Positions 11,590 through 37,783 of a stretch of 37,783 nucleotides of DNA are shown here, in pieces. Position numbers and translations under genes: made by a program. Position 1 is the first letter of the stretch. The number at the start of each line of letters is the position of its first letter. The stretch comes from a virus. The notes under the pieces were generated by a model that was not told the origin of the DNA, made no database searches, and saw only the letters and a list, made by a program, of their open reading frames with translations. Location: the IMG/VR virus record IMGVR_UViG_3300020410_000029, positions 1 to 37,783 of that record; one strand, 5' to 3'.

Positions 11590-13260
11590 CTACCAATCTT
11601 CGTCAGTTGCCCGTCTCCTTGCTTGTTGTTTACTGATGTAATCTTGCATACGCTCTGTGCCTGTCTTCAGTCGATCCTCCTCCGATCTCACCAAGTCTGC
11701 GTTGGATACTGCCGAGGTCGAGTTCATAATCAGAGGATTCATTATTGCCGTCATCGAATTCCTCAATGCCAGCATACCGGCATAGCTTACGCAGTCCACT
11801 TGGTCGTCATGCTTACCATTCGGGAAGAACATAAGCTCATTCTCATACTCCTCAAGCCATGGTGCTTGGGCGGCAGACTTGTGGAATACAGCACCATTCT
11901 CGTATGCCGTGGCGATTATCATAGAACGCCTCACCTTGTCGCCGTCAGCTCTCAATTTTTTGAATGGCGTCCCCTTAGCTCTGCCCTCTTGGATCAACCC
12001 AATCCCAGAAGCATGATCCTCGACTGCTTGGAATAGAATGTCAGGGTGCCTCTCCCTTTGTGCGATCAGGAAATTATACTGCTTCGGCACAGGTATTCTA
12101 TCTCTGGCAATGTCGTCTATGAATATCTCACCGGACGGACTCACATAAGTCGTCATGATTACTGTGTAATTTGACTCGTCCTTTACCTTCATTGCAGTGT
12201 CGCAGGTTTGCATACCCCAACACTCATCACGCCATATTCTCTTTTGATTTCCATTGGCGTCATTAAAGACAAATGCGTCTCTCGTCTCGCCGTCTCCCAT
12301 ATCGACAGCTTCAGTCTTGAAGTAATTAAATGTGGAGCGATCAAACATACCTCCGGCAGACGGTGCAGGATTTTGTTGTAATTGACCAGATATGTTATAG
12401 GCAGTACCCAAGTTTGTCTTTAGCTCTGCGATCTCAGGTTTCCCGTAACGCTCAGGCCATAACGCCTCACCATCCTCTGTTCTTGGGTCAGACCAACCTA
12501 TGCTCGTCGTCCTCGTGAATGGGTGCTTGCTGTCGTATTCTGCCGGAATGCACAACAACTCATAACCACGATTCTGATCCAATAGCCACCCAGTCAAATC
12601 CATCTCGTGCAGTCTTTGCATAACAACAATGTGCCTCCCCGTCTTCGGGTCATTTAGACGTGTACTCATTGTGTTATCCCACCAGTTCAAGACATGGTTC
12701 CTTGCCGTGTCAGAATTCACGTCTGAAGCCTTGTGCGGATCGTCACATACGATGAAGTCTCCACCCTCACCAGTAGCTCCCCCCAGAACACCCGTCGACA
12801 TACGGAAGCCTGTGCGGATATTCTCGAACCTGTCTTTAGAATTCATATCCCTCCGTATGCGAACTCTGTCACCCCAGTTTCTCTGATACCAGTCGGACTC
12901 GATAACTGCCCTACATTTGTTTGAATCTCGTGATGCCAATCCATGAGAGTAGCATGAGAACATCCACCTCGATGAGGGATTATGTATCCAACTCCAACAA
13001 AACCAGAATACCCCCACGGCCAGAGACTTCATGTGTCGTGGAGGAATGTTGATTATGAGCTTGCGTATGTCCCCTCTCGTGCAGGCCTCAAGATGATCGC
13101 AGATAGCTTGAAGGTGCCAACCATCAACGAATGGGGTGGCAGGCTCAACTATAGGCCATGCCTGCTTGACGAACCCATACAATGTGTCCTCAGCCAACCT
13201 CTGACGAACCTTAGACACAGCCTTTCGACTCAATCCCTTGCCGTTAAGTATCGTGTTCAT
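11590..13260 (-). CDS. terL: Terminase large subunit
   Basis: 556 residues from ATG 13260 (GGAGG nine bases upstream; an ATG six bases earlier is possible). The ATPase domain has an atypical Walker A, NIPPRHMKSL (about 71-80), of the 'PPRHGKS' phage type, and Walker B FIVCDDPHK (about 169-177). The nuclease domain has the three acidic sites: CDTAMK, VEDHASG and HDDQVDCVSYA. It cuts concatemers and drives DNA into the prohead through the portal. The gene overlaps the small terminase gene by 17 bases. The Met in place of the usual Gly in the P-loop is notable but seen in related phage enzymes. Confidence 0.96.
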   Translation of the reverse strand: MNTILNGKGLSRKAVSKVRQRLAEDTLYGFVKQAWPIVEPATPFVDGWHLQAICDHLEACTRGDIRKLIINIPPRHMKSLAVGVFWFCWSWIHNPSSRWMFSCYSHGLASRDSNKCRAVIESDWYQRNWGDRVRIRRDMNSKDRFENIRTGFRMSTGVLGGATGEGGDFIVCDDPHKASDVNSDTARNHVLNWWDNTMSTRLNDPKTGRHIVVMQRLHEMDLTGWLLDQNRGYELLCIPAEYDSKHPFTRTTSIGWSDPRTEDGEALWPERYGKPEIAELKTNLGTAYNISGQLQQNPAPSAGGMFDRSTFNYFKTEAVDMGDGETRDAFVFNDANGNQKRIWRDECWGMQTCDTAMKVKDESNYTVIMTTYVSPSGEIFIDDIARDRIPVPKQYNFLIAQRERHPDILFQAVEDHASGIGLIQEGRAKGTPFKKLRADGDKVRRSMIIATAYENGAVFHKSAAQAPWLEEYENELMFFPNGKHDDQVDCVSYAGMLALRNSMTAIMNPLIMNSTSAVSNADLVRSEEDRLKTGTERMQDYISKQQARRRATDEDW

Positions 13261-13897
13261 CTTCATTTGCCTCCAGAGGCTCCAGATCGTCGTCTGCGAC
13301 GTGTTCTACCGTCTCCCCTTCTACCGTGTCGAATTCATCGTCTAGCTCGTCAGACGGCCTCGCAGTGCGTCTGTACTCCTCCTCCCTAGCCAATGCCCTC
13401 TCTTGAATTGCGATCTTCTCGACCTCTTCGGCCATACTAGCAGCGGAATCAATAGCCAGCTTTTGCTCTTCGGTCAGATTGTCGACCCACATATCCAGAA
13501 CATCATCAACCTCAACCTGTGCCTCTATGACTCTTCTTGGTGCTTGCAGCCCCATAAGGTCGTCAGCTTTTGACCTCGCTTGCATCTTCTCATTCAACGT
13601 CGCATTCGGATCATGTAGGATTCTCATATAGAATCCCCACGACTCTGAGATCAGTTCTCGACGTGTTTTTTCAGTCTCTTCGACCAGCCTATTACGCGCG
13701 AGACGTAAATACCTTTCGATCTGCCTAGATGATAGCCCATATTGATTCTTGAAAAACCGCTTAATCTCAGCCTTTCTGCGACCATCAATAAGCATCATCG
13801 CAGTGTATTCGACCCGTTGCTCCAGCTCTGCTTGTGTCGCCCTTGACGGACGTGTCTCTTCAGGTATGGGATTATCCTCTATGCCCTCTATATCCAT
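13244..13897 (-). CDS. terS: Terminase small subunit-like protein
   Basis: 217 residues. Near the N-terminus RRKAEIKRFFKNQYGLSSRQIERYLRLARN reads as a helix-turn-helix that would bind pac/cos DNA. A long helical middle follows (RRELISESWGFYMRI... LNEKMQARSKADDLMGLQ), typical of the oligomerisation core. The C-terminal ~45 residues are strongly acidic (ELDDEFDTVEGETVEHVADD). It overlaps terL, as expected. SD GGGGAGATAGG precedes ATG 13897. The call rests on HTH, architecture and position. Confidence 0.85.
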   Translation of the reverse strand: MDIEGIEDNPIPEETRPSRATQAELEQRVEYTAMMLIDGRRKAEIKRFFKNQYGLSSRQIERYLRLARNRLVEETEKTRRELISESWGFYMRILHDPNATLNEKMQARSKADDLMGLQAPRRVIEAQVEVDDVLDMWVDNLTEEQKLAIDSAASMAEEVEKIAIQERALAREEEYRRTARPSDELDDEFDTVEGETVEHVADDDLEPLEANEDEHDT

Positions 13898-13902
13898 CTT
13901 GC

Positions 13903-14448
13903 CTATCTCCCCATAGAACCCACAACTTTACTGAGTCTCTCATACCTTGCAGGGTTCAGCTCGTACCCGTGATATGTGGCACCGGCTTTGATCGCCGCCT
14001 CCGCAGTCTTGCCTATGCCAGCGAATGGGTCAACTACGGTCTTCGCCCCAGTCAACTTCACTGCCTTGGTCACAGCGTCGAACCCCTTCACGCCATCGCC
14101 AATATCGACAGAAGTATTGAACGTCATTATCACATATGGCTTGTTGTTACTTTGCAAACCATTGACTGTCTTAAAATGCTTGTGACCCGCCGCCTCCATG
14201 TGGTTTATGACACGGTCGCAGTTCTTGACAGAATACTCTATGAATACAGGCTTTTCTGTGCTACATAACGAGGCCAGCTTTGCCAATATCGCACCGATCT
14301 CATTATCGGCAGTCTTCCCCGTCTGCTTCTTCATTTGCGTCTGGAAAAACCTCACCATTCTTTGTTCCCATGGTGGGTCACAGTACACGATGTCGTAATC
14401 GGGAAACTGGTTGATATTCATAATATCCGACAGTGTTGCAGTACTCAT
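13903..14448 (-). CDS. DNA methyltransferase, permuted (motif IV first)
   Basis: 181 residues. The catalytic motif IV is near the N-terminus (DIVYCDPPWEQRM, DPPW at 24-27). The SAM-binding motif I is near the C-terminus (TVVDPFAGIGKTAEAAI, from about residue 140), followed by YHGYELNPARYERL. This permuted order with DPPW is that of beta-class or MT-A70-like N6-adenine methyltransferases. The target-recognition part between them is short, so specificity is not obvious. No restriction partner lies nearby; the likely job is protecting or marking phage DNA. It precedes the small terminase by five bases. SD GGAGGG precedes ATG 14448. Confidence 0.85.
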   Translation of the reverse strand: MSTATLSDIMNINQFPDYDIVYCDPPWEQRMVRFFQTQMKKQTGKTADNEIGAILAKLASLCSTEKPVFIEYSVKNCDRVINHMEAAGHKHFKTVNGLQSNNKPYVIMTFNTSVDIGDGVKGFDAVTKAVKLTGAKTVVDPFAGIGKTAEAAIKAGATYHGYELNPARYERLSKVVGSMGR

Positions 14449-14451
14449 AAC

Positions 14452-15084
14452 TTAGCCCTCCTTGTTATTCTCCAAATACTGACTTATGAAATTTGGGTCA
14501 TATATTTTTGACATTCTATGCTTTGAATTTGAATGGCTCATCACCGACCCCATAAACACATTATGTTGTACCAGAGACGGTATGTGAACATACGCCTTCT
14601 CGCCATAACTCTTCATGTACTCTTGCACGAAACAGTCGTCATGCTTGCCTTCCCCAACCTCCTCCCCAGCGGCAGTCTTTTCCGAGTAATACTGCTTCAT
14701 GTCCTTAACAGCATCGTCAGAAAAAACAGTGGCCTGAAGCCATAGGAAATTCTTGAATACAATGTACTTCTCCCCACGATTTGCCGCCTCATGTATGTCC
14801 TTTCTGTTGGGCGCAAATACCGACAAGACTTTGCAGCCCATCTCGCTCATATCGGACTCAATCACTGGGAAATATTCTGCGAACCTCTTTGGGATTATGA
14901 CATCATCTTGCAAGTGCAGCCGATAGCCCGAAAATGGGATGTCAAGCATACGGACAAAACTGTCCAAAGGACTGATTCTTCTGGTGTCATAATAAACTTC
15001 AACATCAACAGAATCGCCAAGATCATGTAACATCTTTTCGACATTGTCTCTTCGCTCCTCTACTGCTTGAATCGTGACCTTCAT
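14452..15084 (-). CDS. Putative glycosyltransferase (GT2/GT25-like)
   Basis: 210 residues. SGYRLHLQDDVIIPKRFAEYF (QDD at 59-61) looks like the metal/nucleotide-sugar site of a GT-A fold, and GEGKHDDCFVQEYMKSYGEK plus HIPSLVQHNVF provide the acceptor-side 'HDD...VQH' pattern seen in GT25/GT2-like phage proteins. Likely transfers a sugar to phage DNA, a virion protein or a host surface glycan; the substrate cannot be told. The ATG overlaps the preceding stop (TAATG) behind GGGAGG. It sits just upstream of a DNA methyltransferase gene. Confidence 0.7.
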   Translation of the reverse strand: MKVTIQAVEERRDNVEKMLHDLGDSVDVEVYYDTRRISPLDSFVRMLDIPFSGYRLHLQDDVIIPKRFAEYFPVIESDMSEMGCKVLSVFAPNRKDIHEAANRGEKYIVFKNFLWLQATVFSDDAVKDMKQYYSEKTAAGEEVGEGKHDDCFVQEYMKSYGEKAYVHIPSLVQHNVFMGSVMSHSNSKHRMSKIYDPNFISQYLENNKEG

Positions 15085-18954: not shown

Positions 18955-19118
18955 TTAGTTATGGGTTTATCTTTGTACAGATTTGCACCACTGAAGGACA
19001 TAAGGATCAGGTGGTCGCCATTCTCTATCCAGTCCATGACCGCATTAAACTCCTCTTGGTGGTCACATTCTCGCTCGACTATGTTCTTCTCCGTATGGTC
19101 GTAGTAGATTATCTTCAT
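18927..19118 (-). CDS. Small orphan protein ending inside P3
   Basis: 63 residues from ATG 19118 (ATGA overlap with the methyltransferase stop). MKIIYYDHTEKNIVERECDH is followed by WIENGDHLILMSFSGANLY, a small beta-alpha pattern. The last ten residues (TNLENFQKFP) are encoded by the P3 palindrome, and the stop codon is the TGA of TTGACT. So the cassette forms the 3' end of this gene. Function unknown. Confidence 0.6.
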   Translation of the reverse strand: MKIIYYDHTEKNIVERECDHQEEFNAVMDWIENGDHLILMSFSGANLYKDKPITNLENFQKFP

Positions 19119-19666
19119 CGGATCACATACCCCCACATCCTCGCCCTATGGTGAACGATCAGCTCTCTGCCGCCGAAACATTTAAGCACAGCTCTGCGCA
19201 CTCCTTCATAACGACCTCCGTAATCATGCCCGCAAATGAGGCCGCCCTTCTTGACCTTCGGCAACCACAGCCTTATGTCTTCGATCACATCCTCATAGGT
19301 ATGACCCCCGTCTATGAACACAAGCTCCACAGTGGCCTTCTGAAAGCCCGACTCTGCTTCTTGGCTCGTGTGTCGGTGAACTACTGCCGGACGATTCTGG
19401 ACGGCACTCAGAGCCTCCTGATAGACTTCATCCCACTCCGCTTGTGTCCTCTTCCCCATGCCGGTCTTGTAGAATGTGTGATCCTCCGGCCATTCCTTCC
19501 ATGGGTCTACCATATGCAGAGTCAGACCCTCGATCTCATCAAGCAGAATCCGTGATGTCTCTCCCTTGAAACATCCCACCTCTATGCCGGTGACCAACGG
19601 GATTTCCATCCTCGTCTCAATCATATGCAGCAACGCTCGCTGGTGTCTTCTGTATTGCTTCGGCAC
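19115..19666 (-). CDS. SAM methyltransferase (Methyltransf_24-like), paralogue A
   Basis: 183 residues from GTG 19666 (GGAGG six bases upstream). VTGIEVGCFKGETSRILL is motif I (E-x-G-x-x-x-G). LTLHMVDPWKEWPED is motif II. VELVFIDGGHTYEDVIEDI and KKGGLICGHDYGGRYEGV match the 'F-I-D-G-x-H-x-Y-x-x-v-x-x-D...GG-x-i-x-G-H-D' core. This family methylates small molecules or sugars (TylF/CmcI type) and is often found with glycosyltransferases. A paralogue is at 25815-26381. Substrate unknown. Confidence 0.82.
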   Translation of the reverse strand: MPKQYRRHQRALLHMIETRMEIPLVTGIEVGCFKGETSRILLDEIEGLTLHMVDPWKEWPEDHTFYKTGMGKRTQAEWDEVYQEALSAVQNRPAVVHRHTSQEAESGFQKATVELVFIDGGHTYEDVIEDIRLWLPKVKKGGLICGHDYGGRYEGVRRAVLKCFGGRELIVHHRARMWGYVIR

Positions 19667-23045: not shown

Positions 23046-23312
23046 TCACTCCAAGATTCGTGTCATTACCTCGCCAGTTTTATTGACGACACTAACAATG
23101 TCCAACCCCATCCCATAAGCCCTCACAGACCTAACTCGATCCTTCGGCACCGATACCATCGGGAGTCGCTCCACAAGCTCCTGTGCGACCTCCTGCCGGA
23201 CGCTGACCATCTTGGTTGGGTCGATTGTCCAACCCGCCTCTCCATCGCTTAGAATCGACCAGACGGACTCGCTGCCACTCTCGTCAGTTTTAACTATGTA
23301 GAAACGGCTCAT
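23046..23312 (-). CDS. Small orphan protein
   Basis: 88 residues from ATG 23312 (GGAGGGG upstream): MSRFYIVKTDESGSESVWSI, then a beta-alpha body (KMVSVRQEVAQELVERLPMV) and VRSVRAYGMGLDIVSVV. Overlaps the upstream gene by 23 bases. No recognised family. Last gene of the P5 transcript before the promoter-bearing gap. Confidence 0.62.
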   Translation of the reverse strand: MSRFYIVKTDESGSESVWSILSDGEAGWTIDPTKMVSVRQEVAQELVERLPMVSVPKDRVRSVRAYGMGLDIVSVVNKTGEVMTRILE

Positions 23313-23808
23313 ATCCCCTCCACCAATCAGGCTCTTGTCTTCTCGTCCATTCGCAGGTCATGTTGTACCTCTTGTCCACATTGTAGAAATGCCTATATGC
23401 CTCGACGGAACATTCGGCCTTGTATTCGTCAGGCATGCATTGGGGCATTGGGGTTAATGTGTCGCCACGCAGATTAGGACGATTGAACATGCAATACCAT
23501 ATCACCCGCTTGCTTGCGTGATGTGAGTTGTCCGCCCTATGGAATCGGTACGACCACTCGTGAGCCAAAGCCATACCGTGAAGACACAGCCAATCATAAT
23601 TCGCAGCAGACTCATAAGCCCATAAAGTCGAAGGATGCTTAGCATGTGTCGGCTTGTAAATGTTTGACAAGACATCTTCAGAAGAACCCGCAAGATGATG
23701 GACAGTAGACAGCATTTGAGCAGACTCCAAAGTCATCTTGACAACATGCTTATCGCATTGAATTTGCGCAGCAGTTATCGGGCATTTATCCACATAAAAT
23801 ATATTCAT
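23290..23808 (-). CDS. Conserved viral protein of unknown function (MNIFYxD...CDKHVVKM family)
   Basis: 172 residues with MNIFYVDKCPITAAQIQCDK, HVVKMTLESAQMLSTVHHL, then THAKHPSTLWAYESAANYDW and a late YRHFYNVDKRYN. This pattern ('MNIFYlD.dp..aA...cDKHVvKMilE.aQmLst.h', 'k.t..nHPs..W.r.s..Ny.Wl') is widely conserved in phages and large DNA viruses. Invariant Cys/Asp/His and HP...W look like an enzyme active site, but no activity is established to my knowledge. SD is GGTGGCGAG. Confidence 0.78.
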   Translation of the reverse strand: MNIFYVDKCPITAAQIQCDKHVVKMTLESAQMLSTVHHLAGSSEDVLSNIYKPTHAKHPSTLWAYESAANYDWLCLHGMALAHEWSYRFHRADNSHHASKRVIWYCMFNRPNLRGDTLTPMPQCMPDEYKAECSVEAYRHFYNVDKRYNMTCEWTRRQEPDWWRGYEPFLHS

Positions 23809-25814: not shown

Positions 25815-26381
25815 TCAATGCTCCTTAACGACATACCATGACGGGTAACGTCCCCAGTCATCTGATGTCTTCCTATGTCTACGCCTGCGTACTGGCGGCT
25901 TGTACGTCTCTCCGGTCACGCTTATGTCGACACCATAATTCACAGAAAACATATCGACCGCAGTGATTACATTCGGCCATTCGTCAGAATAGTCATGGCC
26001 TGCGAACAGTCCTCCAGCCCTCAGCTTAGGCCACCAAGTATGCAACGTATGTAGCTGTGAACTCGGCTTCCTCGATGCGTCACCATCGACGTAGATGAAG
26101 TCAAGCGATCCGTCATTAAACATCCACGAGGCTTCATCGAATGTCATCCTTGCAAGCCGGACACTGTCCATAAGAACAAGGCGCTGGAATGCGTGACGGT
26201 AGTCGATGGTTGTCCAGTTATCTGCCCAATGATCTACGCCAACCAATATGCACAGCTTTGACTTAGCAAGAACTTCTGTGAAGTCCCCATGCCTTACTCC
26301 CAGCTCGACCCCGACACCCACCAAGCCCATCTCATTTATTAGGTCAGCAAAGTCATTCCTATGCTCAATTATCTTGGTCAT
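25815..26381 (-). CDS. SAM methyltransferase (Methyltransf_24-like), paralogue B
   Basis: 188 residues. VGVGVELGVRHGDFTEVLAK is motif I, LCILVGVDHWADNWT is motif II, and SLDFIYVDGDASRKPSSQL with LRAGGLFAGHDYSDEWPNV match the D-G-x...GG-x-x-x-G-H-D core. It shares this core with the 19115-19666 protein but adds a basic C-terminus (PPVRRRRHRKTSDDWGRY). Likely a small-molecule or sugar methylase. Overlaps the DNA methyltransferase gene by 17 bases. Confidence 0.82.
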   Translation of the reverse strand: MTKIIEHRNDFADLINEMGLVGVGVELGVRHGDFTEVLAKSKLCILVGVDHWADNWTTIDYRHAFQRLVLMDSVRLARMTFDEASWMFNDGSLDFIYVDGDASRKPSSQLHTLHTWWPKLRAGGLFAGHDYSDEWPNVITAVDMFSVNYGVDISVTGETYKPPVRRRRHRKTSDDWGRYPSWYVVKEH

Positions 26382-26934
26382 GCCATTGTCCCCAAAATGT
26401 TTCTTGACGCTCAGAACTCTTTCGCTCTACGGTCACAATCGTATCATTATGCGCGCCGCCATGAGAAACTAGCATAAGCTCTATGATCTTGAATCCCTCA
26501 GACTTCCCGATACCACCACTGTTCCATCCGAAACTGATCGCCATACCATCGGGCTTTATGATCCTCCCAATCTCCTTCTTCGCCTTCGTCCAAAATGAAG
26601 ACTGCGTTGTCTCCATATTAACAGTTCGCCCCAGCTTTTTGTAACATTCGCTGACTTGTCTTGGCGAGTATGGAGGATCATAAAGAACCACATCGACAGA
26701 GTAGTCATCAAACGTAGATAGAAACTCGACTGCGTCCAGATTGTAGTCGGTTCCGTACTCAGGATTGAGGTCATTCGTGATTGTCGCCATCTTGCTCTCA
26801 TTAGCAAATGGGTCGATCACAACCCCGTTCCTGTACTCGTTCAGATTCCTTACGATCAGATCCCTAATCGGGGGCATATTGAATGTCCTAGCAGATGGCA
26901 TACACCACTCCCGACTGAACTGTATCCCACTCAT
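26365..26934 (-). CDS. DNA adenine methyltransferase-like protein
   Basis: 189 residues with motif I VVIDPFANESKMATITNDLN (DPFAN at 41-45) before motif IV VVLYDPPYSPRQVSECYK (DPPY at 86-89), followed by KEIGRIIKPDGMAISFGWNS. DPPY indicates N6-adenine methylation. Motif order is opposite to that of the DPPW enzyme at 13903-14448. Short length leaves little target-recognition sequence. GGAGG precedes ATG 26934. Probably modifies phage DNA; no cognate endonuclease nearby. Confidence 0.85.
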   Translation of the reverse strand: MSGIQFSREWCMPSARTFNMPPIRDLIVRNLNEYRNGVVIDPFANESKMATITNDLNPEYGTDYNLDAVEFLSTFDDYSVDVVLYDPPYSPRQVSECYKKLGRTVNMETTQSSFWTKAKKEIGRIIKPDGMAISFGWNSGGIGKSEGFKIIELMLVSHGGAHNDTIVTVERKSSERQETFWGQWHDQDN

Positions 26935-27200: not shown

Positions 27201-28037
27201 TCACATAAACTTTTTTCTGTTGGTTTTATGAAGCGCATGAGCAAGCTCTGTGACATCGCTTGGCTTCGGCCATTCGTATGTCTTCGCTCGATCCTTCCGC
27301 TTGGCATCCTTCTTCTCTCTCCATTCAATCCACTCTGGGAATGGAAGCTCCCTCTCTTGTCTCAAGAAATGGTTCAGCCCCCCTCCAGCCCCGATCTTAT
27401 GAATAACATGACTTCCCCAGTATTGGTAATGCTCAAGGCCTTTCGTGTACAGTTGAAGCGACCATGCTGTGTTGTCACATGAATACTTTTTCTCCCGATC
27501 CATCTCAAGCAAAAAACTGGCAACCTCCCTCGTACACATCATCCCTCCTGACGTTTGAGTTAATGCCCCAACACACTCCATAACCTTGCCAATGTACTTG
27601 GCATTATTTTTCATTTTACTGGCGTAATGCGCGTTCAAACTGGAGACACCAGAAACGATGCCGACACCAGACTCGAAGCACTTCGCCTGCCACCAACTAT
27701 CTGTGTAATCTGTGTCGTGCGTAAATATGAAGTCATCATCCAGATTGAGATATAAATCAGCGTCCCACTCACTCATACCTGTAGCCCTCATATTAGCAGG
27801 GCCGATCTCGTCAGTGACGAGTTTAATATCCCAGCTTTTCAGATTCTTCTCATCAAGCTCAGAACTAACAGACTCCAGTATCTTCTCAGAAGGAAACGCT
27901 GTCGGGAACTCAGCGACGATACCCAAGTCCCACATACCCCCGAATGGATCATGCTCCCTTAGAGACATAAGCATATCCATGAGCATGTGGATTCTGTTAT
28001 ACCTCGTGATTATGATTGCTCGTCGACTTATGTCCAT
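27201..28037 (-). CDS. Glycosyltransferase, GT-A fold
   Basis: 278 residues. AIIITRYNRIHMLMDMLMSL is a GT2-type N-terminal strand-helix, DADLYLNLDDDFIFTHDTDY carries the D-x-D metal/UDP-sugar site (D100-D102), and GALTQTSGGMMCTREVASFL and KYSCDNTAWSLQLYTKGLEH form the acceptor side, with a late HKIGAGGGLNHF. The C-terminus is basic and helical. GGGAGG precedes ATG 28037. Together with the adjacent methyltransferases it may modify phage DNA bases or host/virion glycans. Confidence 0.83.
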   Translation of the reverse strand: MDISRRAIIITRYNRIHMLMDMLMSLREHDPFGGMWDLGIVAEFPTAFPSEKILESVSSELDEKNLKSWDIKLVTDEIGPANMRATGMSEWDADLYLNLDDDFIFTHDTDYTDSWWQAKCFESGVGIVSGVSSLNAHYASKMKNNAKYIGKVMECVGALTQTSGGMMCTREVASFLLEMDREKKYSCDNTAWSLQLYTKGLEHYQYWGSHVIHKIGAGGGLNHFLRQERELPFPEWIEWREKKDAKRKDRAKTYEWPKPSDVTELAHALHKTNRKKFM

Positions 28038-29480: not shown

Positions 29481-29510
29481 AAAAAACAAGGGGCAGTATT
29501 TCATGCCCCT
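29481..29510 (-). terminator. Terminator after the ibrB-like gene
   Basis: Minus-strand 7-bp stem AGGGGCA / TGCCCCT with an eight-base loop, followed by TGTTTTTT. Nine bases after the stop codon of the ParB-like gene. Confidence 0.9.
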
Positions 29511-29519
29511 GTGCAATGG

Positions 29520-30197
29520 TTAATGAGCAGGTGCTTTCTTTCCGTTCTCATCTTCCCATTGCTTGCGTATCTTGATCTGTCTTTTTGTCGTCCATGCCTG
29601 CTTGTATTCTGTCTCCTCGAACAACTTGCTGAAGCCAGTGATATGTTTCAACCGGACGATTTCTTCTGCCTCCATACCAAGCTCGTTGCATATCTCCTCG
29701 TCAGACCAGCCGTTCTCAAGCATCTCAAAAACCATGTTCGCCATACCATCAACTGAGTGCTTTCCCCTCGCCCGATTATGCCGAACTGTAGAGGCCATCC
29801 GGTCGTTCACATCCTTGTCTATCACAACGCATGGCAGAAGCCCATTGCACGCCTCATAAATATCCTTGTTCGCCCTCAACGTCTGGCTACGATGGAACCC
29901 GTCGACCACGACATATTGATCCTCGTCAGAATCATATACCGTGACGACAGGTTGCGTGTATCCATCGTGCTTTATGCTCGTGTGCAGAAGCCGCATTTCT
30001 ACTGGCGCCACGCTGTTGGGATTGTAGTCATTTGCAACCACCTTATCTATGGGTATCCATTGCACATTATCAATAGGCTGGGACGCTTGCGGAGATGACT
30101 CATAAAGAAACTGCCTAACCTCCCTTATGACCTCCAGTTTGTCTTGCTCAGTCTTTGCTTTTTTCAACAATGATTGGATGTGTTGTTTCCATTCCAT
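29520..30197 (-). CDS. IbrB-like ParB/Srx-domain protein
   Basis: 225 residues. DNVQWIPIDKVVANDYNPNS, VAPVEMRLLHTSIKHDGYTQ, PVVTVYDSDEDQYVVVDGFH and RHNRARGKHSVDGMANMVFE form a ParB/sulfiredoxin-type domain with the G-F-H-R box. ELGMEAEEIVRLKHITGFSK is an HTH. This text closely follows E. coli IbrB, the partner of the DUF3440 protein IbrA. Known: IbrA/IbrB raise expression of immunoglobulin-binding Eib genes by an unknown mechanism; ParB/Srx folds can bind or hydrolyse nucleotides. The gene overlaps the ibrA-like gene by 50 bases, supporting a joint function. A terminator follows. Confidence 0.88.
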   Translation of the reverse strand: MEWKQHIQSLLKKAKTEQDKLEVIREVRQFLYESSPQASQPIDNVQWIPIDKVVANDYNPNSVAPVEMRLLHTSIKHDGYTQPVVTVYDSDEDQYVVVDGFHRSQTLRANKDIYEACNGLLPCVVIDKDVNDRMASTVRHNRARGKHSVDGMANMVFEMLENGWSDEEICNELGMEAEEIVRLKHITGFSKLFEETEYKQAWTTKRQIKIRKQWEDENGKKAPAH

Positions 30198-31389
30198 CTT
30201 CGCTTACCAAACCTCTCTCTTTGTCATAACAGTAATATGGATTAATCTTGAAGAACACATGTGGACTGACGACAGGCCCCATTCTCCTCCAGCGAACATA
30301 CGACCCGACCTGTGCCATCTTCTCAAAATTGCCAATGACCGTCGACTCATAATCATTTCTCAAAATGCCTCGGACACAAGCCTTGCAGAAGTCTCTATGA
30401 AGTATGGGGTTTATCCCGTAACGAATGTCACCTCTGTCAAAGTATGAGGTGAACCTCTTGATGGCTCGCTCCTCGCTTATCATGTTCTTAAACAAATGAT
30501 CCCGATACTCTTCCCAGTCCTCGAACATGCTAGGCAAATCCTTGACCATAAAGGCATTCTCCTGAAGATGTCCTGCTGTGTTGATCCCCTCAAGTCTTTG
30601 GCACAACTTCGCCCATGTATCCCCTTCGATTTCTTGCAAATAATACAAGACTGTGACAGCCGTCTCGTGATGTACATTTGAACAACGCATGTCCTTAACA
30701 TTCACGCCATATTGGTACTGATAGTCATACAGCTTGTTGTATGTCCAGTCATTGTCATGTATCGCTTTCCAGACATCCGTGTATGACCAATCATATATGG
30801 GATAAAATGTGTACTGATCTTTATCTGGATTTAATGCCTTCCCATAAGTCATCCAATCGAACATCGCCTTGCCTTTGGCAGTTATTGCCATAGCCCTTGC
30901 TGGAGACTCCTCACATCGAACACCACCAACGAACGCTGTCTTTTCTGGAAAGTCTTTTCTGGATATTGCATTGAACAAAGCTCCGAACCTGTCCACGCCA
31001 TAATCATTGACCTTTATGGACAAGTCATCTTGCGGCCTCATCCACTCCTCACCTTCCCCCCAGCAATTCAACCACACATCGTCAGAAGTCGTTGATGTCG
31101 CATTGAACAACCGCATAGGAACTTGATACCAGTGTGGCTCAACTCGCTCATCCTCCATAACGCTCTTGACGTAATCGACAGTACACTGCCACTCAGCCTC
31201 TTGGTCTATCCACAACACGCGCACTGGAAGCTGCCCTCGCCTCTCAGCAATCTCCAGAACGAGATTGAGGCATACGGTCGAGTCCTTCCCTCCAGAGAAC
31301 CACACGGCCACCTCATCGAATCTGTCGAATAGATGCTCGATCCTCTTGACCGACATTTCATAAACTGTATCAGCTAGGTAAATCCTCAT
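30148..31389 (-). CDS. IbrA-like PAPS-reductase-fold protein (DUF3440)
   Basis: 413 residues. The PP-loop VAVWFSGGKDSTVCLNL (SGGKDS at 32-37) binds an ATP-like nucleotide. VRVLWIDQEAEWQCTVDYV, FVGGVRCEESPARA and FYPIYDWSYTDVWKAIHDND are typical of the PAPS reductase/DndC/IbrA branch. The C-terminal region has ILHRDFCKACVRGILRNDYE (DUF3440-like Cys pair). Enzyme activity of IbrA is not established; the family is often suspected of sulfur or adenylate chemistry. Pairs with the IbrB-like protein downstream and overlaps a SAM methyltransferase gene by 20 bases. Confidence 0.88.
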   Translation of the reverse strand: MRIYLADTVYEMSVKRIEHLFDRFDEVAVWFSGGKDSTVCLNLVLEIAERRGQLPVRVLWIDQEAEWQCTVDYVKSVMEDERVEPHWYQVPMRLFNATSTTSDDVWLNCWGEGEEWMRPQDDLSIKVNDYGVDRFGALFNAISRKDFPEKTAFVGGVRCEESPARAMAITAKGKAMFDWMTYGKALNPDKDQYTFYPIYDWSYTDVWKAIHDNDWTYNKLYDYQYQYGVNVKDMRCSNVHHETAVTVLYYLQEIEGDTWAKLCQRLEGINTAGHLQENAFMVKDLPSMFEDWEEYRDHLFKNMISEERAIKRFTSYFDRGDIRYGINPILHRDFCKACVRGILRNDYESTVIGNFEKMAQVGSYVRWRRMGPVVSPHVFFKINPYYCYDKERGLVSEDGMETTHPIIVEKSKD

Positions 31390-32260
31390 AACTTCCTGAC
31401 GCTATAACATAACCCTTGTATTCAGTTACATTTTTGAACCACTTGTACCCTGACTTATGCTTGACTGACGACACTCCCCGATTGACACTCAAGTCTACTG
31501 TGCCATCTTCTGATGACCCATCACCAACAACAGAATCCGACGCAAACATAAACCAGAATCTGCCACCCTTCTTCAACTGGAAACGCATCTTAGAAAATGC
31601 TTTAGGGTCGACGTAACTGATGGAGCCGAATGTCGCAATTATGTTATCAAACTCATGTGGGTGGTAGAACTCTTCATAGCTACATACCCTCACTTCAGGC
31701 TCATGCTTTTTTCTGAACTCCCCAATCATTTCTGGAGACGGGTCAATGCCGACATATCCAGAACGATCAAGCTCACAATTCGAGTATGCGAACCCAGTAC
31801 CGCACCCTATATCCAACACAGTACCATCTAGTTGTCCGATCTGATTAACGACCCATTCGTCATCCTCTCCGTCCTCTTCCGATGATGTCATAAGGTCATA
31901 TTGGCTTGCGACTTTGTCATACTCACCGCTTCTCTCGTTCCTTGCAGCATTTATCAGAATCGTCTCATTATCTATGCCGCCAGAAGCAACCACCTCCCTC
32001 CAATTTTTTGTGACCGGACACCCCATAGTCCAGAGACGAAGCTCATTTATATTCCAGCACCGATACACCTCATTATTACGCCATCTCAAATCATATCCCC
32101 AGTCCCGTATCCGCAAGACAGCATCCATGAAATCGTCATCGTTCCCCCATGTCTTCCTCAATGTATACCAATGAGGATTCGTTCTCGCTGCCGTCTTAGC
32201 AAACTTCCACTCAGCACTCAACAATGACGCTGCGATCTCGCACTTTTTCTGGTAATCCAT
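31370..32260 (-). CDS. Class I SAM methyltransferase with N-terminal domain
   Basis: 296 residues from ATG 32260. Residues ~1-140 are an unrecognised helical/Trp-rich domain (WGNDDDFMDAVLRIRDWGYD, NINELRLWTMGCPVTKNW). Then comes a Rossmann methyltransferase: GTVLDIGCGTGFAYSNCELD (motif I), YVGIDPSPEMIGEFRKKHEP (motif II), FDNIIATFGSISYVDPKAFS and LKKGGRFWFMFAS. Substrate unknown. Sits between a ParB-like gene and ibrA, with overlap to ibrA, so it probably belongs to the same biochemical unit. Confidence 0.83.
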   Translation of the reverse strand: MDYQKKCEIAASLLSAEWKFAKTAARTNPHWYTLRKTWGNDDDFMDAVLRIRDWGYDLRWRNNEVYRCWNINELRLWTMGCPVTKNWREVVASGGIDNETILINAARNERSGEYDKVASQYDLMTSSEEDGEDDEWVVNQIGQLDGTVLDIGCGTGFAYSNCELDRSGYVGIDPSPEMIGEFRKKHEPEVRVCSYEEFYHPHEFDNIIATFGSISYVDPKAFSKMRFQLKKGGRFWFMFASDSVVGDGSSEDGTVDLSVNRGVSSVKHKSGYKWFKNVTEYKGYVIASGSYEDLPS

Positions 32261-32267
32261 CACCGCC

Positions 32268-32855
32268 CTAATCCTTCACATAAAAATCTTCAGCGCAATG
32301 AGGACAAGTCACCAACCTCTGGGTGTCTGGCTTAACCTCAAACCGCTTGTTCGCTGCTTCCTGTGCTTTGCGTATGTCCTCGTCAGTAACCTCAGCCTGA
32401 CTTGTAGTCGGTGCCAAATTAGGCTCATACTGAGAACCCACATCAACTGACCCAATGCTCATATCGTTCAACGCCTTGACCATATCACCAACGCTCGCAT
32501 CCAAAAATGCTGCCCTCTCTGCAAGGTCTCCCAACATCTTCTGGTCGATGTCCGCAAAAGCAGAAATGGGGTCATAAACCTGAAGAAGTTTATCAGCTTC
32601 CTGGTCGTCTAAGTCGGTTATCAAAACAGTCCACTCACCGCCAGAATCTTGTCTCATGTGACCGTCGATCAGCGTGAGCTGCCCGTCATTCCGTTCACTG
32701 TAATATGCAACTAATGCACCAGCCTTCCCTATCTCCGATATGACCCCACTGAAAGCCTGCTTCTGTGAGTCTGGGTGAACCTTAAAATTGCCATCGTTCG
32801 CTTTAAGCTCACTGGCATCCATAGTCCTCACTTCGACGATCCTGTTCTTATCCAT
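32268..32855 (-). CDS. ParB/Srx-like protein with C-terminal zinc ribbon
   Basis: 195 residues. VEVRTMDASELKANDGNFKV, HPDSQKQAFSGVISEIGKAG and QLTLIDGHMRQDSG match the ParB-N fold with G-H-x-R in place of G-x-x-R. ITDLDDQEADKLLQVYDPIS continues it as in phage 'ParB N-terminal domain' proteins, where the D-D-x-E-A-d-k box is common. The C-terminal QRLVTCPHCAEDFYVKD supplies one CxxC knuckle. Second ParB-like gene of the cluster. A 16-bp palindrome lies 24 bases upstream. Confidence 0.78.
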   Translation of the reverse strand: MDKNRIVEVRTMDASELKANDGNFKVHPDSQKQAFSGVISEIGKAGALVAYYSERNDGQLTLIDGHMRQDSGGEWTVLITDLDDQEADKLLQVYDPISAFADIDQKMLGDLAERAAFLDASVGDMVKALNDMSIGSVDVGSQYEPNLAPTTSQAEVTDEDIRKAQEAANKRFEVKPDTQRLVTCPHCAEDFYVKD

Positions 32856-33611: not shown

Positions 33612-34036
33612 ATATCTCCCATCCGCACGTCCGCTTCAGAAATGTCCTCGTCATTAAAATCGACAGACGACCACACAGTTCTCCCGACAGTTTTCAACTC
33701 AGTCACCCACCATAATTTCTCATTCGGGGTATGCCAACCAATGATTACCATAGGCACCTCCTTGCGACCCCGTGATACCCTGCACTTGGTGCTGAACAAC
33801 ACAGCCTTGCCGCCCCAAAACATGTATTCCATAATCCGTGATATCTCATGTTCGGTCGGTTTCCAAGTCTCCAAGTCATCAATCTGTACACTCGCCACAG
33901 ACCCGTCATTACCAAGCACCCAGTTTACAGGTGTGACCAACTGACCCACCAATAAATTCTCATTGTCATAAAGCTCTCTCAAAGCCCAGACTAAATCCGG
34001 AGATGTCTCCTCGACCACGCTTCCATTGAAAGTCAT
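33581..34036 (-). CDS. Orphan beta-rich protein
   Basis: 151 residues from ATG 34036, which overlaps the stop of the VWA-like gene (ATGA). MTFNGSVVEETSPDLVWALR, TPVNWVLGNDGSVASVQIDD and the late KLWWVTELKTVGRTVWSSVD show a beta-rich globular protein. No motif that I recognise. Tight coupling to the preceding gene suggests a role with the AAA+/VWA-like pair. Confidence 0.62.
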   Translation of the reverse strand: MTFNGSVVEETSPDLVWALRELYDNENLLVGQLVTPVNWVLGNDGSVASVQIDDLETWKPTEHEISRIMEYMFWGGKAVLFSTKCRVSRGRKEVPMVIIGWHTPNEKLWWVTELKTVGRTVWSSVDFNDEDISEADVRMGDIWREMSKNCN

Positions 34037-34935
34037 ACCCCAAGAACCTCCTCCCACTCAGACACCCCAATCGCCTCATCGCCGACCAGCTCGAATTGTC
34101 TCAGGACTTGATTGACCGCACCAACTGCCCCATCCTCGGATCGGACAAACGGCATATAGACAACCCTAGTGTCAGAGCCAATGTCTAAATGCTTATCACA
34201 TTTTCCCAGACGCTTGTTGACACTGCCCAAGTTATTGTTCCCGACAGGGCAGTTATTGAACGAGTTGAATACGACAGCCCGCAGAAACCACCCACTAAGT
34301 ACGTTCATTATCCCGCCAATATCCAGAAACGCCCCAAACTCCTTCATACGAACAGTTGTGAATTGTCCTCTGATGCTCCCATTGAAAACGCCATCGCCTT
34401 TATTCCACATCAACATCTCGACATTGTACCCCGACTGTTCCAGAATATCGGCAATCACAACAGCGCCAGCACCCCGCCATGCTATCTCTTCAGGACTATC
34501 GTCCCCACTGCCATCCAGATTAGTGAGCAGGGTTACATTAGCAGGGCCATTGACCATACCCTTTTGCATTGATCGCCAGTACGGCTCACCGGACATCCAC
34601 CTATTAGAGCAAACCTCAGAGCCAGAGCTATCTGACCATATTCGCCGCCTCCTTCGTGACTTCGGCTCAGGTAAATCATGCTTCTTCAGTCGCTCCACAA
34701 TCGACTCCATAGATTCCAACACATCCGGTTCAGGATCAAAGCAAGCAGCCTTCACCTGTTCCCATGTATAAATACTCCTCCCTAGCCATCCATAAGTGTG
34801 GACAGAGAACCTATGCTTTTGAAGCCCAGTCCTTGTCTTTTGCCCCAGACAATCTTCCGTGGACTCGACAATATCATCAACAGAATCGAAGTGCATAACG
34901 TGTACACTCTCTTCATTATCTCTCACATATTTCAT
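34033..34935 (-). CDS. Putative VWA-like partner of the AAA+ ATPase
   Basis: 300 residues from ATG 34935 (GAAGGG upstream). Front: HFDSVDDIVESTEDCLGQKT. A basic Arg stretch (PKSRRRRRIWSDSSGSEVC) follows, then NVTLLTNLDGSGDDSPEEIA, WRGAGAVVIADILEQSGYNV and LRAVVFNSFNNCPVGNNNLG, ending with SDTRVVYMPFVRSEDGAVGA. The strand-helix-strand core with Asp/Ser residues resembles VWA-like (DUF7192-type) proteins that phages encode next to CobS-like ATPases, but the canonical DxSxS is not clean (NLDGSGDDS). VWA assignment is tentative; the pairing is more secure. Confidence 0.65.
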   Translation of the reverse strand: MKYVRDNEESVHVMHFDSVDDIVESTEDCLGQKTRTGLQKHRFSVHTYGWLGRSIYTWEQVKAACFDPEPDVLESMESIVERLKKHDLPEPKSRRRRRIWSDSSGSEVCSNRWMSGEPYWRSMQKGMVNGPANVTLLTNLDGSGDDSPEEIAWRGAGAVVIADILEQSGYNVEMLMWNKGDGVFNGSIRGQFTTVRMKEFGAFLDIGGIMNVLSGWFLRAVVFNSFNNCPVGNNNLGSVNKRLGKCDKHLDIGSDTRVVYMPFVRSEDGAVGAVNQVLRQFELVGDEAIGVSEWEEVLGV

Positions 34936-34952
34936 TGATCTTTTCCCTTCAT

Positions 34953-35003
34953 AAAATCGAGGACGGACAGGCACAGGAGACGATGAAAAACCATAACCTG
35001 CCC
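34953..35003 (-). terminator. Hairpin between AAA+ and VWA-like genes
   Basis: Minus-strand 7-bp stem GGGCAGG / CCTGTCC (one G-T) with a 25-base loop, followed ten bases later by ATTTT. Weak; may attenuate or stabilise mRNA rather than terminate. Confidence 0.4.
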
Positions 35004-35013
35004 GCCCCCTTAA

Positions 35014-36450
35014 TCACATAACCTTACGCTTCTCATCATCCGACCATCCCGCAAAGAACTTCTCGGAAATTTTATCCAGTCCCCACCCCTTCTGAGTGTG
35101 CATCTTGTAGGCACTCTTGATGAACCTTGTAGAACAAACTCGACGCAACTTGTGCATACGAATCTCATTTCTCCATCCGTGAATTGTGTCTAGCAGATTC
35201 GCATCGGGACAAAGCATTCTCTCGATCCTCTCGTCATAATCCATCTCGACCGTCCCCATATTGAAGCGATCTAACCAAGCGGCATCTTGCTGATTCCTTC
35301 CGACATACATACGGTCAGCACCATTGCCAAATGTGTTGGCAGCACACAGGCAAATAAAGTCGTCATGCTTCTTTGCGACAGGATTGTCTCTACGCAAAGG
35401 AACCGCCATTTCCCCATTGCTAGTCGCAGAATTTATCACAAGCAAGGCATTGCTATCGGCAGCGTCAGCCTCATCAAATAACCACACCCCTCCATTCTCA
35501 AAGAAGTCCAGAAACTCCGTCCCCTGATAAACCATTTCTCCGGTTTGCAGATTTGGGATTGATCTGCCAAGAAACTCGGCCTCCGACATCATAGCAGAAC
35601 AACTTATCATCCCAGCTCTCATCCCCAGAATCTTTGCGATCTGCTTGTGCAGAAACGTCTTTCCCGATCCGGCAGGGCCGACCAGCAATACATTCTCCCG
35701 TGGGTTTGCAGTGACTAAGTCCAACACCTCCTGAGCCTTCTCGTGAAGCATCTCACCATCAAGCTCGACATCCTCGGCATCGGGCATTTCAACAACGATT
35801 CTGTCCGGTGGTATTTTGCTAACCAGCTCCTTCATTGTGTCGGCGAGACTATCCGCTAAATCATTGGCAGCCTTCGTCACTTGCTTGGTAATGTCATCGT
35901 CTACATAATCCATAACCTTCGAGGCTATGCCCGCAGTAGCTCGTGCCACCTCACTCTTCAGCAAATCAGTCAAAGAATCCAGTTCGCTCGGCAACCCATC
36001 GCTTGCCTCCCCTTGCCCATTGCCTTCGATTGAACTATCTGATTCGACTTCAGAGCCGCCCAGCTCGTCGTCTGCGGCGTCCTGTGGTGCCTCGGCTTGT
36101 GTCGAGTCCTCTCCACCTAATGATTCGTTAGGCGAAGGCTCAGGAGCTTCTCCGTATATCGCCGATCCTGACCCGCAGTTATTTGCAGTTTCGGCGCCAT
36201 CCTCAATCAGACTCCCGCCCTCTATGTATTCAGGATCGTGCAAGACATCGGAGATTTTAGCCATCTCCCCATCCCGCCCCATAGTAAAACCTTCAGGAAA
36301 TTGACACCCCACATGCGCCCATCGAACAAAGTTTTCATAAGGCACAGGCACAGGCTCAACAGTAGAACCAGCCGGTATTTCTTCCCCACATCGACAGCAA
36401 GCCTTTTGGCCATACTTGTCGATTCTGTATTTCTCGTGATTAGTATTCAT
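35014..36450 (-). CDS. CobS/MoxR-like AAA+ ATPase with N-terminal zinc finger
   Basis: 478 residues from ATG 36450 (GGGTGAG upstream; an ATG 12 bases earlier is possible). Residues 18-49 (KACCRCGEEIPAGS ... WAHVGC) form a C-x2-C...H-x2-C finger of the PARP type. Residues ~95-160 are an acidic, Ser-rich linker. ~225-478 is a single AAA+ module: ENVLLVGPAGSGKTFL (Walker A, 258-265), VWLFDEADAAD (Walker B, 322-329), CAANTFGNGAD (sensor 1 Asn372). This AAA_5 branch (CobS, MoxR, GvpN) works with VWA-type partners to remodel proteins or insert metals, and the next gene is a candidate partner. The phage role is unknown. Confidence 0.86.
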   Translation of the reverse strand: MNTNHEKYRIDKYGQKACCRCGEEIPAGSTVEPVPVPYENFVRWAHVGCQFPEGFTMGRDGEMAKISDVLHDPEYIEGGSLIEDGAETANNCGSGSAIYGEAPEPSPNESLGGEDSTQAEAPQDAADDELGGSEVESDSSIEGNGQGEASDGLPSELDSLTDLLKSEVARATAGIASKVMDYVDDDITKQVTKAANDLADSLADTMKELVSKIPPDRIVVEMPDAEDVELDGEMLHEKAQEVLDLVTANPRENVLLVGPAGSGKTFLHKQIAKILGMRAGMISCSAMMSEAEFLGRSIPNLQTGEMVYQGTEFLDFFENGGVWLFDEADAADSNALLVINSATSNGEMAVPLRRDNPVAKKHDDFICLCAANTFGNGADRMYVGRNQQDAAWLDRFNMGTVEMDYDERIERMLCPDANLLDTIHGWRNEIRMHKLRRVCSTRFIKSAYKMHTQKGWGLDKISEKFFAGWSDDEKRKVM

Positions 36451-36483
36451 CGTCTCACCCATTCTCTCTCATAAATTAAAATT

Positions 36484-37320: not shown

Positions 37321-37783
37321 TCAGACGTTGAAATAATTTTCAAAGCATTTCTTCAGTTGGGTATATTTGCGTTCGATCTGTTTCTTGCCATTGCCCGCGC
37401 AGTGAATAAACTGAACGCCGCCTCTGCGAATCATCATTGATCTGATAGTGCCATTCGGAATCCAGTTCCATTTTGTATCAAGCTCGCTTACTGGAACATC
37501 GCCAGAATCTATCGAGTCAGAAACAGGCTGTTGCTCGTACCACGTCCCGCACTTCTTCCAGTCACTGTTCTCATAAACTCCCTCAAGCCACTTCCTATGC
37601 TCCCTCGGCACCACCATAACTCCAGTTTGCCAATGGTCATCCTCACGCCTCAAGTTTACAGAATCCCAATCCACATACTTATGAATTGGCTCGGCCTCCG
37701 GCATTATGAAAACGTCCATATCAAGCATAAGCACATGGCTCACATCTTTCGGGACGACATGGAAGGCTAACAGCTTTTGCCAT
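37321..37783 (-). CDS. Glycosyltransferase-like protein (5' end outside window)
   Basis: The frame is open from the right edge to the stop at 37321 (154 visible residues). WQKLLAFHVVPKDVSHVLML leads into DMDVFIMPEAEPIHKYVDWD, a D-x-D site after a hydrophobic strand as in GT8-like or GT-A enzymes. DDHWQTGVMVVPREHRKWLE fits 'F-N-x-G-v-m-v' of GT8 with Q-T-G instead. GGVQFIHCAGNGKKQIERKY is the C-terminal H-x-x-G-x-x-K motif that binds the diphosphate in GT8 enzymes. A GTG at 37743 is an unlikely start because the strand before DMD would be lost. Confidence 0.75.
   Translation of the reverse strand, partial: WQKLLAFHVVPKDVSHVLMLDMDVFIMPEAEPIHKYVDWDSVNLRREDDHWQTGVMVVPREHRKWLEGVYENSDWKKCGTWYEQQPVSDSIDSGDVPVSELDTKWNWIPNGTIRSMMIRRGGVQFIHCAGNGKKQIERKYTQLKKCFENYFNV

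Follow-up and report, generated by a model that had tools for sequence, protein, structure and literature searches.

The window (the whole 37,783-nucleotide stretch of viral DNA that was analyzed) has four minus-strand ORFs at 32268-32855, 31370-32263, 30148-31389 and 29520-30197. In the direction of transcription these encode a ParB-like protein (ParBa), a methyltransferase fused to a domain termed c4, a homologue of IbrA and a homologue of IbrB. The methyltransferase gene directly follows ParBa, starting at GTG 32263 or ATG 32260 and ending at 31370. It overlaps the IbrA gene (31389-30148) by 20 bases, and the IbrA gene in turn overlaps the IbrB gene (30197-29520) by 50 bases. An intrinsic-terminator-like hairpin on the minus strand (29489..29510; 7-bp stem, 8-base loop, then TGTTTTTT) closes the unit, in agreement with the abutting or overlapping, terminator-closed layout described in the first-pass annotation. 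The next strong hairpin upstream is at 36871-36844 in a consensus scan whose hairpin counts are no higher than in shuffles; judging by this hairpin, the transcription unit probably also includes the AAA+ ATPase and the DUF7192 gene. The window has no nucleotide-level relatives among 50,697 phage records. The identical four-gene order is found in three other phage contigs (L005, L093, L118), which bears out the earlier claim that these genes form a single linked unit. This unit is one version of a larger, conserved module.

The IbrA homologue (30148..31389, minus strand) has a PP-loop ATPase domain (PF01507, 6.9e-17, 62.4 bits, cutoff 22.5) and a DUF3440 region (2.5e-6, 27.8 bits, cutoff 25), and matches phrog_2302 at 4e-81. 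The PP-loop is intact (SGGKDST at residues 32-38), and SGGKDS, D62, E64, R158, E161, R165, D200, D205 and R235 are invariant among 105 nr80 homologues. In the same alignment no cysteine is conserved, the highest Cys frequency in any column being 57%, and the catalytic Cys found near the domain C-terminus of (P)APS reductases is missing. Since the reductase Cys is absent, a role in sulphate assimilation as a PAPS reductase was ruled out, and the alignment argues that the sulphur-metabolism reading is wrong for the IbrA family. The profile and fold neighbours are the PAPS-like domain of FAD synthase, CysD and (P)APS reductase, which have the PP-loop fold in common with IbrA residues 1-261 (8ron_D, Z 16.3, rmsd 3.8, 183 aligned; 1zun_A, Z 15.3, rmsd 4.0, 173 aligned; 2goy_A, Z 15.2, rmsd 2.8, 176 aligned). 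IbrA differs from all three in an extra C-terminal region of ~150 residues, and from CysD and (P)APS reductase in having ParB proteins as partners where they have CysN or thioredoxin. The closest solved relatives have small-molecule substrates (FMN, sulfate, APS), an observation that counts against DNA hypermodification. The first two neighbours transfer AMP to small molecules, which is consistent with a small-molecule pathway in which IbrA would be an adenylyltransferase producing a nucleotide conjugate that is then methylated, glycosylated or acylated. The product might serve as a counter-signal, as a cofactor or in NAD/nucleotide rescue during infection, and the ParB-fold proteins would be nucleotide kinases or hydrolases. 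Such a pathway seems improbable overall.

The first-pass annotation had also drawn an analogy to the phosphorothioation enzyme DndC. The Dnd/Ssp systems (DndB-DndC; SspD) and BREX type 4 (BrxP) likewise include both a PP-loop ATPase and a member of the ParB superfamily (DndB), and the PP-loop domain of IbrA is similar to BrxP and, by profile, to DndC (1e-11, residues 28-218). However, DndC needs conserved Cys (PMC10853773), whereas no IbrA column exceeds the Cys frequency given above. Among the Dnd/Ssp/BREX models of PADLOC, the 44 window proteins gave only the IbrA match to DndC/BrxP, and no DndA/D/E, SspB/C or desulfurase was found in the window, in a record that may be incomplete. Dnd/Ssp phosphorothioation was therefore ruled out on the IbrA cysteines and the missing partners, and the analogy does not hold. 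Given the lack of a conserved Cys in IbrA and its likeness to FAD synthase, CysD and (P)APS reductase, the idea that a DndC/SspD-type enzyme inserts sulphur here in the manner of phosphorothioation is largely refuted, and its confirmation would come as a great surprise. A host desulfurase might stand in for the one absent from the window.

The IbrB homologue (29520..30197, minus strand) matches phrog_2159 (1.5e-76, 259 bits) and scores 21.5 bits against PF02195, under the cutoff of 26.3. Its profile matches in the PDB include ParB (4umk, 6.7e-7) and Noc (7ol9, 1.6e-5). The motifs DGFHR and TxRHNRARGxH are conserved among the 105 nr80 homologues, and a ParB N-terminal domain with a G-x-x-R-type motif places the protein in the ParB/Srx superfamily. 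For ParBa (32268..32855, minus strand), the first of the four genes, Pfam gives no ParB family and the ParB matches from PHROGs are only weak (phrog_498, 3.2e-5; phrog_620, 7.2e-5). The protein belongs to a ParB-like family that adjoins IbrA in many phages and has conserved G65, R68, C184, P185 and C187, the last three forming a C-terminal CPxC motif. One family member (L056:803-1375) matches ParB_N at 2e-8. The ParB/Srx fold takes in a free serine kinase and SbnI, which is a further point for a small-molecule pathway.

The gene at 31370..32263 (minus strand) encodes a fusion of an N-terminal c4 domain of ~90 residues and a C-terminal class I SAM methyltransferase. PF13649 is matched by the C-terminal half only (1.5e-10, residues 148-233), and the N-terminal part aligns with standalone ~90-aa proteins that adjoin IbrA in other phages. 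Eight c4 members have no Pfam family, a fold search in the PDB returned nothing significant, and the sole match below 1e-3 in a viral library is an unnamed 93-aa protein. The structure model of the fusion is confident for approximately residues 1-110 only; the methyltransferase half is largely below pLDDT 50 and no conclusion was taken from it. There are 17 further viral cases of the fusion, and it also occurs as a lone gene in bacterial chromosomes without IbrA. IbrA is present in only 4/52 bacterial c4 loci, so c4 was ruled out as an exclusive IbrA partner. By family the window methyltransferase is of the small-molecule type. This, together with the chromosomal fusions, favours a small-molecule pathway, and with the predominance of c4 without IbrA in bacteria it counts against DNA hypermodification.

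The best PHROG for the methyltransferase is phrog_4752, a tRNA methyltransferase family (4.4e-9). PP-loop ATPases, class I methyltransferases and GNATs are often used in tRNA modification, so the enzyme types and this match are what would be expected if tRNA or another RNA were modified to counter host nucleases or tune translation. However, no tRNA gene or RNA family was found in the window, no known RNA-binding domain was found, and the partners include DNA-type methylases and ParB proteins. Modification of RNA is therefore very unlikely to be the role of these genes.

Two other genes of the module lie beside the terminase large subunit (11593..13266, minus strand), which matches at 3e-183 a profile that likewise picks out the annotated TerL of phage Hendrix and the terminase of the IbrAB-bearing mycobacteriophage Phlyer. 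The first (14455..15084, minus strand) is a GT-A-type glycosyltransferase (GT) matching the profile of IbrA-linked GTs at 5e-65. Its conserved positions are R11, D60-D61, D150, PSLVQH and R190; the conservation of D60-D61 (0.87/1.00), as a DD/DxD motif, together with the profile match assigns it to GT-A. The glucosyltransferase family phrog_854 is matched by 15/18 GT family members (best 1.7e-11) and weakly by the window copy (0.0028). The second (13906..14448, minus strand) is a short (180 aa) DPPW-type DNA amino-methyltransferase that matches PF01555 (7.1e-8, 33.1 bits, cutoff 26.7) and the profile of IbrA-linked methyltransferases (7e-64). Its PDB profile matches are mostly adenine or cytosine-N4 DNA methyltransferases (best 5hfj, 7.6e-5), D24, P26, W27, G144 and G146 are conserved, and the DPPW motif IV precedes the DPFxGxG motif I as in beta-type enzymes. 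In other phages the GT family usually lies between c4 and IbrA and the DPPW methylase usually adjoins IbrA; the window copies (13906-15084) are 16 kb from IbrA. The window has no recognized GNAT; a GNAT encoded at a related locus matches Acetyltransf_1 in Pfam and phrog_3810, and no Mom PHROG. Several partners are thus of DNA-acting type (PF01555 DNA methylase, ParB proteins), an observation in favour of DNA hypermodification. A small-molecule pathway does not account for such recurrent partners, nor for a module that neighbours the terminase instead of metabolic genes.

Among 50,697 GenBank phage records, 215 carry IbrA and 218 carry IbrB, with almost identical genus counts. The pair is present in 84/85 nr90 environmental loci, IbrB is beside IbrA in 61/62 diverse viral full-flank loci, and the coding regions overlap in 159/185 pairs. 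The pairing exceeds chance. A ParBa homologue is near IbrA in 49/62 full-flank loci. Across these loci, on the IbrA tree, ParBa requires 2 changes vs 12.1 when shuffled and c4 requires 8 vs 17.8. The turnover of the transferases is near random, with 18 changes vs 20.6 for GT, 18 vs 21.0 for the DPPW methyltransferase and 13 vs 13.6 for GNAT. At least one of these three is present in 39/41 c4-bearing loci, and L118, one of the remaining two, has a c4-methyltransferase fusion in their place. A terminase is within 6 kb in 71/85 loci. As judged from gene content, IbrA, IbrB, the ParB-like protein and c4 are a conserved core on which transferases are exchanged rapidly. Co-occurrence of the families in other phages, on which the first-pass annotation had staked its proposal, is thus strong.

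The same turnover may instead reflect an anti-defence hot spot, a terminase-proximal site where unrelated counter-restriction genes gather. The DPPW methylase, GNAT and GT would work independently of one another, with targets in DNA or elsewhere, and IbrAB and ParB would have a separate role, such as regulation of phage or prophage genes. The almost random exchange of transferases fits this explanation, and in another phage set DNA methylases are the commonest variable genes (PMC7468147). The eib genes of E. coli are reportedly activated by IbrA/IbrB, as cited in PMC6008420. Many cultured phages of Streptococcus, Lactobacillus, Flavobacterium and Pseudoalteromonas have IbrAB without a recognized transferase nearby; therefore, IbrAB must be useful alone. 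This observation and the 16 kb separation in the window also count against DNA hypermodification. However, a hot spot leaves unexplained why c4 and ParBa track the IbrA tree and why transferases, in matching orientation, usually have c4 on one side and IbrA on the other. It also does not explain the recovery of IbrA in 26/26 c4-seeded and 35/35 GT-seeded loci (of at least 13 kb), many loci having been found through seeds (c4, GT or MTase) taken from IbrA neighbourhoods. Nor does it provide a target for a DNA glycosyltransferase without a handle. A hot spot is unlikely, if still a credible explanation.

We favour a nucleic-acid hypermodification module, acting most likely on the phage's own DNA before packaging, and consider this reading to have nearly an even chance of being correct. 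The core (IbrA, IbrB, the ParB-like protein and c4) would install a chemical handle on phage DNA. IbrA may spend ATP on adenylylating a target group and hence activating it, and ParB-type NTPase/DNA-binding partners would assist by selecting or opening the DNA. The exchangeable transferases (GT-A, DPPW amino-methyltransferase, GNAT) would then add a sugar, methyl or acyl cap to the shared handle, and in the window the class I methyltransferase fused to c4 may be one such capping enzyme. Related phages would thereby show different modifications to host restriction systems, and evasion of restriction would be the purpose. The first-pass annotation had proposed a complete modification or signalling pathway; modification remains the best reading, but completeness of the four-gene pathway is not supported since the usual partners (GT, DPPW methylase, GNAT) vary and two sit far from the unit here. 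A more tentative proposal, which we consider possible but doubtful, is that the module represents an undescribed class of DNA hypermodification. It would combine a Cys-free adenylyltransferase of the PAPS-reductase family with ParB-fold partners and the new domain c4, with the handle arising from sulphur-free activation of a group on the base or the backbone. Glycosyl-, methyl- and acyltransferases would be swapped on the conserved core and diversify the final modification.

The proposed scheme, in which one step makes a handle and variable enzymes then cap it, is similar in logic to T4 hmC glucosylation and to CmoA-CmoX-CmoY, which make 5-carboxymethylcytosine, and ParBc proteins are also common neighbours of CmoX (PMC12783734). 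The window differs in that the activating enzyme would be a PP-loop protein of the PAPS-reductase family. No cytosine C5-methylase, CmoA, hydroxymethylase or asparagine-synthetase-like ligase is among the family matches of the window. Since no base hydroxymethylase was matched among the families listed, a glycosyltransferase acting on DNA would require a different handle. In E. coli, IbrA-IbrB (ECOR-9) and YbdN-YbdM (K-12) are, by phage and host annotation, the same adjacent pair of a PP-loop/DUF3440 protein and a ParB-like protein. PMC6008420 and PMC9068703 describe these pairs as regulators or uncharacterized. In the literature found they are not reported with c4, a glycosyltransferase or a DPPW methylase, whereas the window IbrA falls in a clade that mostly carries c4. 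Stenotrophomonas phages DLP3 and DLP5 have a ParB-GT-methyltransferase-terminase region, and DLP3 DNA is restriction-resistant (PMC7326821); these phages were set aside as support since no Stenotrophomonas record is among the IbrA matches listed.

IbrA-IbrB pairs occur in hundreds of phage and prophage genomes, where the usual annotation is PAPS reductase (sulphur metabolism) or virulence regulator, and no biochemical function is assigned to them in the literature found. The present analysis links the pair to a conserved core and exchangeable transferases; this gene set is widespread, and its make-up beside the DNA-packaging genes suggests an undescribed way to disguise phage DNA chemically. 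If this is true, phages would protect their DNA by a further, new chemistry, and the enzymes might also provide new means of labelling DNA. A paper from 2013 that predicts complex base modifications in phages is said to include lysidine-like pyrimidines and PP-loop enzymes in phages, which bears on the novelty of this proposal. The module is also present in the cultured Microbacterium phages Hendrix and Rasputia.

The window encodes a ParB-like protein, a SAM methyltransferase, IbrA and IbrB, and the first-pass annotation is confirmed in placing all four open reading frames on the minus strand at 29520-32855. The first gene (32268-32855, 195 aa) has a weak ParB match in PHROGs. The second (31370-32260, 296 aa) has a class I methyltransferase domain in its C-terminal half (Pfam, PHROGs); an alternative GTG start three bases upstream of 32260 is likewise open. 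IbrA (30148-31389, 413 aa) matches PF01507 (6.9e-17), DUF3440 (2.5e-6) and phrog_2302 (4e-81), and IbrB (29520-30197, 225 aa) is ParB-like and matches phrog_2159 (1.5e-76). The methyltransferase and IbrA genes overlap by 20 bases and those of IbrA and IbrB by 50, and directly 3' of IbrB (29510-29489) is a GC-rich hairpin that runs into a stretch of T. Portal, capsid and terminase genes are also present in the 37.8-kb window. A gene for a CobS-like AAA+ ATPase (35014-36462, minus strand; phrog_249, 8e-48) and then one for a DUF7192 protein (34033-34974, minus strand) probably share a transcription unit with the four genes. In relatives, these two genes did not appear as a conserved component of the IbrAB module.

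Among 50,697 phage records there is no DNA-level relative of the window; an IbrA relative is encoded by 215 of them and an IbrB relative by 218. The counts for the two proteins are identical in phages of Flavobacterium (90), Mycobacterium (55), Streptococcus (21), Arthrobacter (12), Bacillus (6), Microbacterium (5), Rhizobium (4) and Lactobacillus (3). An IMG/VR scan seeded with IbrA gave 42 loci. Contigs L005, L093 and L118 hold the exact order of the window (ParB-like protein, methyltransferase fused to the c4 domain, IbrA, IbrB), with the terminase next. Two patterns are seen among the cultured phages. Flavobacterium, Streptococcus, Lactobacillus, Pseudoalteromonas, Mycobacterium, Arthrobacter, Bacillus and Rhizobium phages carry IbrAB alone or with ParBs, some with an annotated methyltransferase too, whereas Microbacterium phages Hendrix and Rasputia carry the full module. 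Their cluster spans the arbitrary map ends; the Hendrix genome is circularly permuted (PMC7302621).

Clustering of IbrA neighbours identified the recurrent partners of this larger module. ParBa is ParB-like with a C-terminal CPxC motif, and c4 is a protein of about 90 aa whose homologue in the window forms the N-terminal part of the methyltransferase. The GT-A-type glycosyltransferase (GT) has conserved DD and PSLVQH motifs, and 15 of 18 members match phrog_854 'glucosyltransferase'. The DPPW methylase (about 175-200 aa) has PDB profile matches mostly to DNA amino-methyltransferases. GNAT is a further partner, and the order closes with IbrA, IbrB and the terminase. The window's GT (14455-15084) and DPPW methylase (13906-14448) adjoin its terminase, 16 kb from IbrA. 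The 85 nr90 viral loci contain IbrB (84), ParBa (74), c4 (68), TerL (71) and at least one of GT, DPPW methylase and GNAT (81). Reciprocally, IbrA was recovered in 26/26 c4-seeded, 35/35 GT-seeded and 8/9 methylase-seeded loci of at least 13 kb; the seeds came from IbrA neighbourhoods, and the result covers those subfamilies of GTs and methylases.

The partners differ in how they follow the IbrA tree of the 62 loci with full flanks (a larger tree has 105 leaves). IbrB, present in 61 of the 62, follows the tree, as do ParBa, with 2 changes where 12.1 would be expected under label shuffling, and c4, with 8 where 17.8 would be expected. GT (18 vs 20.6), DPPW methylase (18 vs 21.0) and GNAT (13 vs 13.6) show no clear difference from shuffling. 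At least one of these three transferases is held by 39 of the 41 c4-bearing loci, and L118, one of the two exceptions, has its methyltransferase fused to c4 as in the window. Among the loci, gene order takes 32 different forms and the terminases fall into two families. Such a pattern would arise if an unchanging core made a product that is finished by different transferases. A counter-defence hot spot would fit it as well and therefore stays the leading rival.

IbrA has a SGGKDS loop, D62, E64, R158, E161, R165, P197, D200, D205 and R235 that are (nearly) invariant in 105 nr80 homologues. Among solved sequences, CysD (1.9e-8) and FAD synthase (4.6e-7) come closest to it, with PAPS reductase behind both. 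The predicted structure (mean pLDDT 85), compared over residues 1-261 only, matches FAD synthase (Z 16.3, rmsd 3.8, 183 aligned) in an effective tie with CysD (15.3) and APS reductase (15.2). The analogy to DndC and phosphorothioation drawn in the first-pass annotation is rejected. Only the PP-loop domain resembles DndC (1e-11), and the cysteines that define DndC (PMC10853773) have no conserved counterpart in IbrA, where no column exceeds 57% Cys among the 105 homologues. The 44 window proteins include no further match to a Dnd/Ssp component. Therefore, an adenylylating role without sulphur would fit IbrA best. The suggestion of a modification or signalling pathway is otherwise partly supported and is extended here.

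Methyl-, glycosyl- and acyltransferases alike require a nucleophile, and PP-loop enzymes typically adenylylate a carbonyl, carboxylate or phosphate, enabling nucleophile attachment. We therefore propose that IbrA, IbrB, ParBa and c4 would place a handle on DNA, which the exchangeable transferases would cap. However, the closest solved relatives of IbrA work on small molecules and c4-methyltransferases occur alone in bacterial chromosomes, both of which argue against DNA as the substrate. Such lone fusions, with no IbrA nearby, are seen at L246:7926-8837, L250:7926-8840 and L265:7923-8834 in gammaproteobacterial and alphaproteobacterial assemblies, the one in L265 being recognised as a fusion by length and context only. 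At L283:6097-11374 (Bacteroidales), a standalone c4 is flanked, as judged by eye, by an apparent DUF262 (GmrSD-type) gene on one side and an apparent large restriction/methylase-like gene on the other, which hints that c4 may serve in a defence island there.

The module is best regarded as a likely new variant of phage hypermodification systems, a reading that can be tested directly in cultured phages. IbrAB is credited in one citation with activating eib genes (PMC6008420) and is elsewhere mentioned as phage genes whose role is not known (PMC4541368), and a LysR regulator is described as targeting YbdNM (PMC9068703); the literature examined gives no biochemical function for IbrAB. The module was not found described there either, and its novelty is provisional. 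Stenotrophomonas phages DLP3 and DLP5 have a consecutive run of aminosugar-type genes, a methyltransferase, a glycosyltransferase, ParB and TerL, with no IbrA annotated in the region. DLP3 DNA is resistant to 15 restriction enzymes (PMC7326821).

The window also has other modification-type genes, all on the minus strand, and encodes at least five methyltransferases in total. A GT2-like protein (27201-28037; PF00535, E 0.063) lies near a DNA methyltransferase (26368-26934; phrog_11619, 1e-51), possibly as another sugar/methyl pair. The genes at 19118-19666 and 25818-26381 both encode PF13578 (Methyltransf_24) proteins, which belong to a single family. From its motifs (LDMDVF and FIHCAGNGKK), a protein truncated by the window end (37324-37782) reads as a third GT-A-like protein. 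The gene at 23296-23808, assigned by eye, is probably the source of the PF03013 (pyrimidine dimer DNA glycosylase) match in the window scan.
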